DNA of 64,000 nt from positions 124,001-188,000 of the forward strand of contig JAOABC010000004.1 of the NCBI GenBank assembly GCA_026418535.1. The letters run 5' to 3'. The position numbers were made by a program, and so were the translations under genes. Every line of letters begins with the position of its first letter. The stretch's first letter is position 1. Positions 45,483-53,255 of the stretch are shown here, piece after piece. The notes beneath the pieces were generated by a model. It ran no database searches. It was not told where the DNA came from and was given only the letters and a program-made list of their open reading frames with translations. Source of the stretch: Hydrogenothermaceae bacterium (lineage in GTDB: Bacteria > Aquificota > Aquificia > Aquificales > Hydrogenothermaceae).

Positions 45483-46013
45483 TTACTTCTTAGGTCTGAA
45501 AGCTTTAACCTTGGTAGGGTCTGTATCTATGTACGGACCTTCTATGAGTTCCACACAGTATGGAATAGCCGGAAACACAGCGTCTAAACATAGTTTTATA
45601 GACTGTGGTTTTCCAGGGAGATTTACTATCAGGCAACTTCCCCTTATACCTGCCGTCTGTCTAGAGAGTATAGCTGTAGGAACCTGTTGGAGAGAGACCT
45701 GCCTCATGAGTTCTCCAAACCCAGGCATCATTTTATCACATACAGCTTCTGTAGCCTCCGGAGTAACATCTCTCTTTGCAGGCCCAGTTCCACCGGTTGT
45801 AAAGATGAGACAAGCCCCTTTACTGTCCACCATATCTATCATACTGTCCTTAATAATTTCAAGCTCATCTGGAATAACTCTGTAATCAACCTCAAAGGGA
45901 GTTATCAAAACATCCTGAAGGTATTCTATAATGGCTTTTCCACTTATGTCTTCATATACTCCTTTACTTGCTCTATCTGATACTGTTAAGACACCTATTA
46001 CAGCTTTCTCCAT
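45483..46013 (-). CDS. mogA: Molybdopterin adenylyltransferase (MogA/MoaB type)
   Basis: A 176-residue MogA/MoaB-family protein that adenylylates molybdopterin before metal insertion. It has GVLTVSDRASKGVYED at the start, FTTGGTGPAKRDVTPEAT and NLPGKPQSIKLCLDAV. The ATG at 46013 is preceded by GAGGAG; the frame extends nine codons further. It lies one base after the end of the upstream cysteine-motif gene on the same strand, so they are co-transcribed. Confidence 0.92.
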   Translation of the reverse strand: MEKAVIGVLTVSDRASKGVYEDISGKAIIEYLQDVLITPFEVDYRVIPDELEIIKDSMIDMVDSKGACLIFTTGGTGPAKRDVTPEATEAVCDKMMPGFGELMRQVSLQQVPTAILSRQTAGIRGSCLIVNLPGKPQSIKLCLDAVFPAIPYCVELIEGPYIDTDPTKVKAFRPKK

Positions 46014-46014
46014 G

Positions 46015-46545
46015 CTAACTCCTCTCAAAACTGAACACACATCTGTTTTTCTGAAAATCTCTTTCCTTCCACCTAACCCCTCTTACTCCTCTGTCTAACT
46101 CTCTCACAAATCCTTCTATAAGCCCAAGACCTCCCCAGCAGACAGGGTGCTCTATAGGTTTTATATTCATGGGTTCTAAAAAGTTTGGGAAAAATATACA
46201 ATTACAGATACAAGCTTCTTCCTCAAATTTCTGGATTTCCTCTGCAAAACCAAGAAACTTAAGAGCGATCAGAAAAATCTTTTCCCATTCATCGCTACTC
46301 TTTTCCTCCATTAGAGACTTTGCTACCTCTCTACCTATCTGTCTAAAAACAGCAAATCCACCATTTTTACCGTATATATTCTGAATCTCTTTCCCGATCA
46401 TAAAGACCAACTCTTTACCATCAAACCCTTCTTCTCTTTTAGAGTTCACCTTATTTAGAATAAGTTCTACACCATGCTCTCCAAGTATATTTTTTGTTAT
46501 TGATAGGAGTTTATCTACCACTTCCTGACTAACCTCTGTCCTCAT
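46015..46545 (-). CDS. Cysteine-motif protein A, V4R-like, paralogue of the next gene
   Basis: A 176-residue protein paralogous to the one at 46660-47199. Shared features are a helical N-terminal half (LSITKNILGEHGVE, FRQIGREVAKSLME), a CxCNC segment (Cys112, 114, 116), EHPVCWGGLGLIEGFV (Cys136), and RWKERD with Cys169 near the end. The C-terminal pattern resembles V4R-type small-molecule binding domains; this is inference. The cysteines suggest metal or cluster binding. The gene has its own promoter (46567-46595) and precedes mogA by one base. Confidence 0.7.
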   Translation of the reverse strand: MRTEVSQEVVDKLLSITKNILGEHGVELILNKVNSKREEGFDGKELVFMIGKEIQNIYGKNGGFAVFRQIGREVAKSLMEEKSSDEWEKIFLIALKFLGFAEEIQKFEEEACICNCIFFPNFLEPMNIKPIEHPVCWGGLGLIEGFVRELDRGVRGVRWKERDFQKNRCVFSFERS

Positions 46546-46566
46546 GACAGACCTCTCCTCAGATTT

Positions 46567-46595
46567 ATTATATATACGTGAATGATAGATGTAAA
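46567..46595 (-). promoter_or_regulatory. Sigma-70-type promoter of cysteine-motif gene A and mogA
   Basis: On the minus strand TTTACA (46590-46595) and TATAAT (46567-46572) are exactly 17 bases apart, about 21 bases upstream of the ATG of the 46015-46545 gene. A pair of direct repeats lies just upstream of the -35 element. Confidence 0.65.
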
Positions 46596-46606
46596 AAATT
46601 TAAGTT

Positions 46607-46627
46607 TGATTAAATAATGATTAAATA
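46607..46627. repeat. Two 10-bp direct repeats upstream of a promoter (possible activator site)
   Basis: TGATTAAATA occurs at 46607-46616 and again at 46618-46627, a period of 11 bases, or about one helical turn. The repeats start 12 bases upstream of the -35 element at 46590-46595, the position used by activators that touch RNA polymerase. On the minus strand each unit reads TATTTAATCA. No matching regulator gene is identified. Confidence 0.5.
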
Positions 46628-46659
46628 GATTTTACAATGAAGATGATCATAAAGTATGC

Positions 46660-47199
46660 TTAATCTTTTATGTAAATAAACCTACACTTGCGGTTCTCGT
46701 AGTCTCTGTCTACCCATACAATACCTTTTACTCCTTCCTCAAGACCTTTTACAAAAGCCTCTATAAACCCCCAGCCACACCAACAAACACAGTGTTCTAC
46801 AGGTGCATAATTCTTTGGTTTTAAGATACTTTCGTAAAAGACACAGTTGCAGATATACGCTTCTGTGGATGTTTTCTCTATCTTATAGGCAAATCCAAAA
46901 GTGTTTAGACTTTTCTCTAAAACTTCTTCCCACTGCTCCTTAGGATACCTTTCCATCAAAACCTTTGCCACTTCTCTACCAAGTTGTCTTATTATGGCAT
47001 ATCCTCCTTTCTGTCCAAACATATTCTGAATTTCGTCAGCAAAGGCAAAGACTATATCCTTTCCGGAGGAAGACTCCCCCATCCTTTTTGATATCTCAGA
47101 TAGTACATGATTTACTGCATTTTCACCTAGTATATTTTTAGTGAGAGATACGAGAGTGTTTATAACATCTTGGTTTATTTCTCCTTCTATTCTTTCCAT
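46660..47199 (-). CDS. Cysteine-motif protein B, V4R-like, paralogue of the previous gene
   Basis: A 179-residue protein clearly paralogous to the 46015-46545 product. Conserved segments are LTKNILGENAV, GGYAIIRQLGREVAKVLME, YICNCVF (Cys117, 119), EHCVCWCGWGFIEAFVKGLEEGVKG (Cys137, 139, 141) and WVDRDYENRKC (Cys172). It has two more cysteines than its partner in the CVCWC stretch. Function is unknown; a redox or metal sensor or carrier is possible. A promoter candidate is at 47227-47255 and a 113-base gap with a second promoter separates it from gene A. Confidence 0.7.
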   Translation of the reverse strand: MERIEGEINQDVINTLVSLTKNILGENAVNHVLSEISKRMGESSSGKDIVFAFADEIQNMFGQKGGYAIIRQLGREVAKVLMERYPKEQWEEVLEKSLNTFGFAYKIEKTSTEAYICNCVFYESILKPKNYAPVEHCVCWCGWGFIEAFVKGLEEGVKGIVWVDRDYENRKCRFIYIKD

Positions 47200-47265: not shown

Positions 47266-47292
47266 GGAAGCCCACCATTAAGGTGGGCTTCC
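47266..47292 (-). terminator. Intrinsic terminator after clpB
   Basis: A perfect 11-pair GC-rich inverted repeat (GGAAGCCCACC / GGTGGGCTTCC) with a five-base loop lies six bases past the clpB stop. On the minus strand it is followed by a moderately T-rich tail. It separates clpB from the downstream cysteine-motif gene B. Confidence 0.8.
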
Positions 47293-52191: not shown

Positions 52192-52859
52192 TTATAGCGA
52201 TAGATGGACCTGCAGGAAGTGGGAAGAGTACTGTAGCAAAAGCTCTTGCTAAGGAGCTTGGGTTCGTATACATCGATACAGGAGCTATGTACAGAGCCCT
52301 TGGACTAAAAGTAATAAAAGAGAGGATAAACCCAGATGATAAAGAAGAGGTGATAAAACTGATAGAAAGAACTGAAATAGTCTTAGATGGAAGTAGAGTC
52401 CTTCTCGATGGAGAGGATGTTTCTTCTCTAATCAAGACAGAAGAAATTGGAAATGTGGCATCAAAGATCGCAAGGTACCTTCCTGTTAGGAAGTATATGG
52501 TGGAAAAACAGAGGGAGATAGGAAAGAGAGCTAAAAATGCTGTTATAGAAGGTAGGGACACTGGAACTGTTATATTCTCAGACGCAAACTTGAAACTCTT
52601 CATGACCGCTTCTCCGGAGGTTAGAGCAAAAAGGAGAGTACACCAACTGAAGGAGAAAGGTTTTCCTGTGGATTACAATCACATTCTACAGAAGATTCTA
52701 GAGAGAGACAAGATGGACTACGAGAGGAAGGAGTCTCCTCTAAGACCTACAGAAGACTATATAGTAGTGGACACATCAAGCATGGGCATAGAAGAAATCA
52801 TCAGATACATAAAATCCCTAATCTCAGAAAGGCTTAAGAATAACCAGGATGACTATTAA
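52188..52859 (+). CDS. cmk: Cytidylate kinase
   Basis: A 223-residue CMP/dCMP kinase with the P-loop IDGPAGSGKSTVAKALAKEL, YIDTGAMYRALGLK, VIEGRDTGTVIF and RRVHQLKEKG. Length and motifs are standard. It follows the HAD gene with an ATGA overlap, and its 3' end overlaps the convergent hemJ by 36 bases. Confidence 0.96.
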   Translation: MIIAIDGPAGSGKSTVAKALAKELGFVYIDTGAMYRALGLKVIKERINPDDKEEVIKLIERTEIVLDGSRVLLDGEDVSSLIKTEEIGNVASKIARYLPVRKYMVEKQREIGKRAKNAVIEGRDTGTVIFSDANLKLFMTASPEVRAKRRVHQLKEKGFPVDYNHILQKILERDKMDYERKESPLRPTEDYIVVDTSSMGIEEIIRYIKSLISERLKNNQDDY

Positions 52860-53255
52860 TATGAGAAGAACTGTTGGGATTTCATTGTACATCCGGAAAA
52901 ACTTCCCGGATCTATTACACTCTCCACGCTCGAACCTTCTCCTAACATACTCGTTGTGGAAGTAAAAGGCGGAGAGAAATAAAACGAGGGTTATCTTGGC
53001 ATGTAACCAACCTCCGGAAGTTATCAGTTCTGGGTTTAAAAATATCATACCTACTCCGGTAACTACCGTTATAATAAAAGCTGGGATACCTATAAAGTAA
53101 AACAGCTTTCTTTCCATAACATTCACAACCTTCACAAAGCCTTCGTTATCTTTATTCTCAGCATGGTAGACAAAAAGCCTCGGTAGATAGAACAGAACTG
53201 CCATCCAAGAAACGAAAAAAACTATATGGAAGACCTTCATCCAGAGGTAAGCCAT
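52824..53255 (-). CDS. hemJ: Protoporphyrinogen oxidase HemJ
   Basis: A 143-residue membrane protein with four transmembrane helices, of the HemJ (UPF0093) family that oxidises protoporphyrinogen IX in haem synthesis. The first helix carries the conserved WMKVFHIVFFVSWMAVLFYLPRLFVYH (His and Arg functional residues), and WLHAKITLVLFLSAFYFH forms the third. GGAGG precedes the ATG. The C-terminus overlaps cmk. A 58-base spacer divides it from the divergent response regulator. Confidence 0.92.
   Translation of the reverse strand: MAYLWMKVFHIVFFVSWMAVLFYLPRLFVYHAENKDNEGFVKVVNVMERKLFYFIGIPAFIITVVTGVGMIFLNPELITSGGWLHAKITLVLFLSAFYFHNEYVRRRFERGECNRSGKFFRMYNEIPTVLLILIVILVILKPF

Follow-up and report, generated by a model that had tools for sequence, protein, structure and literature searches.

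Two tandem genes on the minus strand of the window (the whole 64,000-nucleotide stretch analysed here, from a heat-loving bacterium of the Hydrogenothermaceae) encode paralogous proteins, V4R1 and V4R2, which are predicted to share the fold of V4R, H-NOX and TRAPP domains and which carry four cysteines and a histidine conserved in nearly all members of their family across Aquificota. The explanation we prefer, rated as a whole at even chances, is that of a stand-alone metal-thiolate module of the V4R type responding to a ligand or to redox state. The fold and the general kind of protein are already known. The features of the locus are given below, with conservation counted over 32 family members across Aquificota in V4R2 numbering.

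47266-47292, minus strand: terminator-like hairpin with an 11-bp stem, after clpB and between clpB and V4R2
46660-47199, minus strand: V4R2, open reading frame of 179 amino acids, the orthologue of the gene that most Hydrogenothermaceae have as a single copy
46843-46851, minus strand: C117-N-C119 of V4R2, the CxC that closes the second strand (cysteine in 31/32 and 32/32 members, respectively)
46780-46794, minus strand: H136-C-V-C139-W of V4R2, at the start of the long C-terminal helix (histidine in 32/32, Cys139 in 31/32)
46684-46686, minus strand: C172 of V4R2, in the last strand (C-x-F; cysteine in 32/32), aligned by hhalign with the final V4R cysteine
46567-46595, minus strand: promoter-like TTTACA-17-TATAAT with 11/12 consensus bases, lying some 22 bases before V4R1
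46015-46545, minus strand: V4R1, open reading frame of 176 amino acids, a divergent paralogue and additional copy
46198-46206, minus strand: C114-N-C116 (CxC) of V4R1, from sequence and alignments
46135-46149, minus strand: H133-P-V-C136-W of V4R1, from sequence and alignments
46039-46041, minus strand: C169 of V4R1, from sequence and alignments
45483-46013, minus strand: mogA, encoding molybdopterin adenylyltransferase (NCBIfam NF006932, 1.4e-84, over cut-off), a neighbour outside the described system

The minus-strand order is V4R2, V4R1 and mogA, with both V4R reading frames open and in tandem. V4R1 ends a single base short of mogA (stop codon at 46015-46017, mogA ATG at 46011-46013), as the sequence-only reading of this DNA had noticed, and the NF006932 match confirms the neighbour as MogA. 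The promoter-like site before V4R1 and the hairpin after clpB weakly suggest separate short transcription units, with the V4R1 site being suggestive only since promoter-like sites are not above shuffled sequences in count, and with terminator-like hairpins likewise no more numerous than in shuffles. Given the TTTACA-17-TATAAT site, V4R1 and mogA may possess a promoter of their own. V4R1 and V4R2 are the only family members in the host genome (1.47 Mb, 29 contigs). A weak V4R match elsewhere in this genome was rejected as a paralogue, being a BcsD-like protein that adjoins BcsB (G000:C22, L105:5153-5686, minus strand; Cellsynth_D just under cut-off, weak V4R). In genomes G001 and G008 a small membrane protein sits beside the family member, near clpB (L036:9005-9310 and L039:7039-7353); the window lacks this protein in the gap separating clpB from V4R2. 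The window also contains a HemJ-like protein (52824-53255, minus strand), the homologue of which in genome G010 follows the family member after about 10 bases.

The two proteins are 45% identical and 71% similar over 170 amino acids of gapless alignment (BLASTP 2e-61), and despite this level of overall identity both retain all four cysteines within the common ICNC, H-x-V-C-W and C-terminal C-x-F motifs. The proposal of a paralogue pair sharing CNC, VCW and a C-terminal cysteine was thus borne out. The additional cysteines ascribed to the second copy are real (C137 and C141) but lineage-specific, occurring in 9/32 and 8/32 members, respectively. V4R2 is 77% identical to the only family protein of the sister genome G001, and comparison with its same-genus orthologue gave a saturated dS with a dN of 0.15, indicating strong purifying selection. 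By contrast, V4R1 is an extra copy with no counterpart seen in G001 and forms a long, unplaced branch in the family tree. It resembles the f3-like clade in its HPVCW and IFYPNFLE motifs, and it may have arisen through an old duplication or through transfer from that clade. V4R2 would be the ancestral copy and V4R1 an additional, divergent copy carrying the same cysteine motif.

Because C117, C119, H136, C139 and C172 are each found in 31 or 32 of the 32 members, the shared cysteine pattern is not due to chance. The CxC, the histidine and the two further cysteines are retained down to about 33-40% identity, with the first cysteine of CxC missing in the member from G058 and the VCW cysteine missing in that from G108. 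Relatives are common in Hydrogenothermaceae, including Sulfurihydrogenibium, and extend to a third family of the order and a few Aquificaceae. Most Aquificaceae possess a sister group of about 141 amino acids in length (e.g. L054:7856-8281), significantly homologous to the family (hmmsearch 1e-10 to 1e-14, hhalign 97%) and devoid of all four cysteines. The cysteines therefore define a subfamily, not the fold; that the fold can do without the cysteine site in these cousins counts against a metal-site reading. An earlier suggestion had tied its case to relatives keeping both the cysteines and the mogA linkage: close relatives do keep the cysteines, but most are without mogA linkage and the distant Aquificaceae proteins are without cysteines. 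No relatives were detected on plasmids or viral contigs. PHROGs gave no significant match, nor did the PDB when searched by sequence, whether the query was V4R1 or the family profile. A match in Victivallales (L035) was discarded because its HCVCWCGWG occurs by chance in a large protein unrelated to the family.

AlphaFold (AF2) models reached a mean pLDDT of 94.5 for V4R2 and 94.1 for V4R1 (with 25 and 28 aligned relatives, respectively) and consist of four helices, a two-strand hairpin, a short helix, a long helix and a second hairpin. In the models, the CxC ends the second strand, VCW starts the long helix and the last cysteine is in the second hairpin. Foldseek against the PDB ranked H-NOX first (TM 0.5-0.57), with further matches to YslB, BcsD, the V4R domains of PoxR, MopR and DmpR, and archaeal and eukaryotic TRAPPC3/Bet3. 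Foldseek probabilities were mostly 0.8-1.0, with E-values from 4e-4 to 6e-2 and TM of 0.4-0.5 to PoxR/MopR/DmpR and TRAPPC3; given such modest E-values and V4R/TRAPP TM scores, we place the proteins at the superfamily level. The Pfam V4R model (PF02830) gave 15.6 bits for V4R1, no match for V4R2 and 18.1 bits for the best member, none reaching the gathering score of 31, and among 25 members sub-threshold Pfam matches were to V4R in 8 and to ATC_hydrolase in 6. The suspected V4R resemblance thus holds at the fold level, where confident models match V4R, H-NOX and TRAPP, but not at the level of Pfam V4R, and matches that stay below cut-off indicate a divergent V4R-like family.

The DmpR V4R domain coordinates zinc next to its phenol pocket, the ligands being Cys151, Glu172, Cys177 and Cys185 (PMC7264223). 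Alignment of the family to canonical Aquificota V4R proteins by hhalign placed VCW on PVC and KCRF on the final C-x-F, with the first and last cysteines of the zinc site matched and its glutamate and middle cysteine having no counterpart at the aligned positions. As this alignment is not significant (probability 2%, E 0.024), the case for residue equivalence with V4R draws on the fold and on the C/G/C-x-F pattern common to both. The CxC may replace the missing glutamate and middle cysteine. Metal or thiol chemistry at the conserved cysteines is plausible, as these are near-invariant and two of them align with cysteines that coordinate zinc in V4R domains, and the four of them probably hold a metal. 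In the model we propose, V4R1 and V4R2 would be intracellular proteins that stand alone and adopt the V4R/H-NOX/TRAPP fold. Each would coordinate a single metal ion (most likely Zn2+) through the CxC, the VCW cysteine and the last cysteine, perhaps together with the histidine, in a site at the base of its C-terminal helix and beta-hairpin. As in the DmpR and MopR V4R domains, the metal would brace a hydrophobic small-ligand pocket, and the protein would serve as a binding module that responds to a ligand or to redox state. Since neither protein has a fused domain, any output would pass through partner proteins.

The main rival is a thiol-disulphide redox switch resembling that in the V4R domain of MsvR: reversible disulphides between the cysteines would alter the protein's conformation. 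MsvR is a methanogen regulator, and mutation of its conserved V4R cysteines alters its redox-dependent DNA binding (PMC3729527). The near-invariance of the cysteines agrees with such a switch, which is also compatible with metal binding because thiol switching and a metal are not mutually exclusive. We nevertheless consider it unlikely as the explanation, given that an output domain is absent, that the conserved histidine sits with the cysteines, and that a CxC plus two more cysteines is a typical metal-ligand set. A heme or tetrapyrrole binder, acting as an H-NOX-like or BchJ-like carrier, would agree with H-NOX providing the best fold matches and with hemJ lying just downstream of the family gene in G010, but this reading is very improbable because the hemJ linkage was seen once, the HNOB (H-NOX) model found no Pfam match up to E=10, and the helix before the first strand contains no conserved histidine at the position of the H-NOX proximal heme ligand. 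Both the proximal histidine and the Y-x-S-x-R residues are absent from the invariant and near-invariant columns of the family alignment, and H-NOX heme binding was rejected on these missing ligand residues.

Two further rivals draw on the neighbourhoods, which were read in 24 genomes. The family gene adjoins mogA in five of them (two of the window's genus and three of the Sulfurihydrogenibium group) with a spacing of 1-4 bp or a short overlap, and the three Sulfurihydrogenibium-group genomes have the order moaA-V4R-mogA (moaA by TIGR02666). This tight spacing across two genera is what favours a molybdenum-cofactor accessory, a carrier or chaperone working with MogA and, in some species, MoaA. 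However, within the window's family the gene shows no association with a MogA over cut-off (2x2 counts 7/19/5/6, Fisher p=0.44), G010 (99% complete) has the family gene with both mogA and moaA absent, and Persephonella-like and other genomes carry the gene elsewhere, without this MogA. Two more Sulfurihydrogenibium-group genomes have it beside folD (by eye), with no mogA there. The link to molybdenum cofactor raised by the sequence-only reading is therefore not upheld; a molybdenum-cofactor function was rejected for want of co-occurrence with the corresponding genes, and we regard the accessory role as highly improbable. Inconsistent mogA linkage, lack of co-occurrence and the G010 genome together indicate that the family gene most likely has an independent function, and the preferred metal-thiolate module would be no molybdenum-cofactor enzyme, with the mogA neighbourhood a local operon arrangement. 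Other neighbours are lnt upstream (two genera), hemJ, a roadblock gene, a Ras-like GTPase, and cysM or secY (secY by eye). The proteins could instead partner a Roadblock/Ras-like GTPase module in the manner of TRAPP, given the fold match to TRAPPC3, a Roadblock/LC7 gene (Robl_LC7, 2e-17) directly upstream of the family gene in G012 and, for G058, a Ras-family GTPase as the second gene downstream of it. Such linkage was found in just 2/24 genomes, and the roadblock-sized gene of G058 has no Pfam confirmation, leaving this partnership improbable. At L048:4603-6075, a single run of genes encodes a divergent member without the first CxC cysteine, then a roadblock-sized protein and then a Ras-family GTPase. 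In G044, a protoglobin gene (PF11563, 1e-20; L053:9287-9919, minus strand) is convergent to the family member.

A broader claim would be that Aquificota have rebuilt the V4R/H-NOX/TRAPP fold, in a lineage-specific manner, around a new CxC/His/Cys/Cys metal site to yield a free-standing metal, redox or gas sensor, with the Cys-less sister family showing the gain or loss of the site; we hold this as a doubtful possibility. In the literature we came across no account of the CxC/H/C/C arrangement, nor of the lineage-specific subfamily described here, and no paper naming both Sulfurihydrogenibium and V4R in the open-licence literature, the latter being weak evidence. If true, the metal site would represent a new ligand set for a fold found in phenol sensors and NO sensors as well as in the TRAPP vesicle-tethering core. 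The existence of sister families with and without the cysteines in a single phylum would also offer a natural comparison of the metal's role. The analysis also corrects a tempting molybdenum-cofactor link as unsupported.

Among known systems, H-NOX (PF07700) holds the highest Foldseek ranks without a sequence match, and TRAPPC3/Bet3 (archaeal 7yh3 and eukaryotic Bet3) shares the fold family and an occasional roadblock or GTPase neighbour, with no sequence match and a lower TM. YslB/DUF2507 (PF10702) and BcsD match in fold, with sequence matches below cut-off and a different gene context; ATC_hydrolase (PF14196) likewise differs in gene context, its match in 6/25 members being weak and below cut-off. 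MsvR-type regulators have a fused DNA-binding domain, whereas V4R1 and V4R2, at 176 and 179 amino acids, have none. The Cys-less Aquificaceae proteins differ from the family in their neighbourhoods as well as in the absence of the four conserved cysteines.

L112-L120 (e.g. L113:2676-3191 and L118:2384-2863) contain V4R proteins of the canonical kind, scoring over the Pfam cut-off and bearing a D-E-C-I-T-C-[AS]-G-M motif, and several of their genes lie between or beside heme d1/denitrification genes. The neighbours are a cytochrome cd1-type protein and NirJ in L118, and siroheme decarboxylase AhbA/AhbB and NorB in L113, tying this V4R protein to nitrite/NO reduction or heme d1 synthesis in Aquificota.

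It is common for V4R proteins to stand alone. The closest comparison for V4R1 and V4R2 is the V4R domain (PF02830; sensory domains of DmpR/MopR/PoxR, MsvR, BchJ), which has the same predicted fold and which they resemble in a C-terminal helix starting with a cysteine, a G-x(2-3)-G-like pattern followed by a glutamate, and the final C-x-F. By contrast, the family is without the glutamate and middle cysteine of the zinc site and instead has the CxC strand and the H-x-V-C-W signature. V4R proteins are patchily distributed with no strict metabolic link (PMC2253512), and the shifting neighbourhoods of the family gene fit this pattern.
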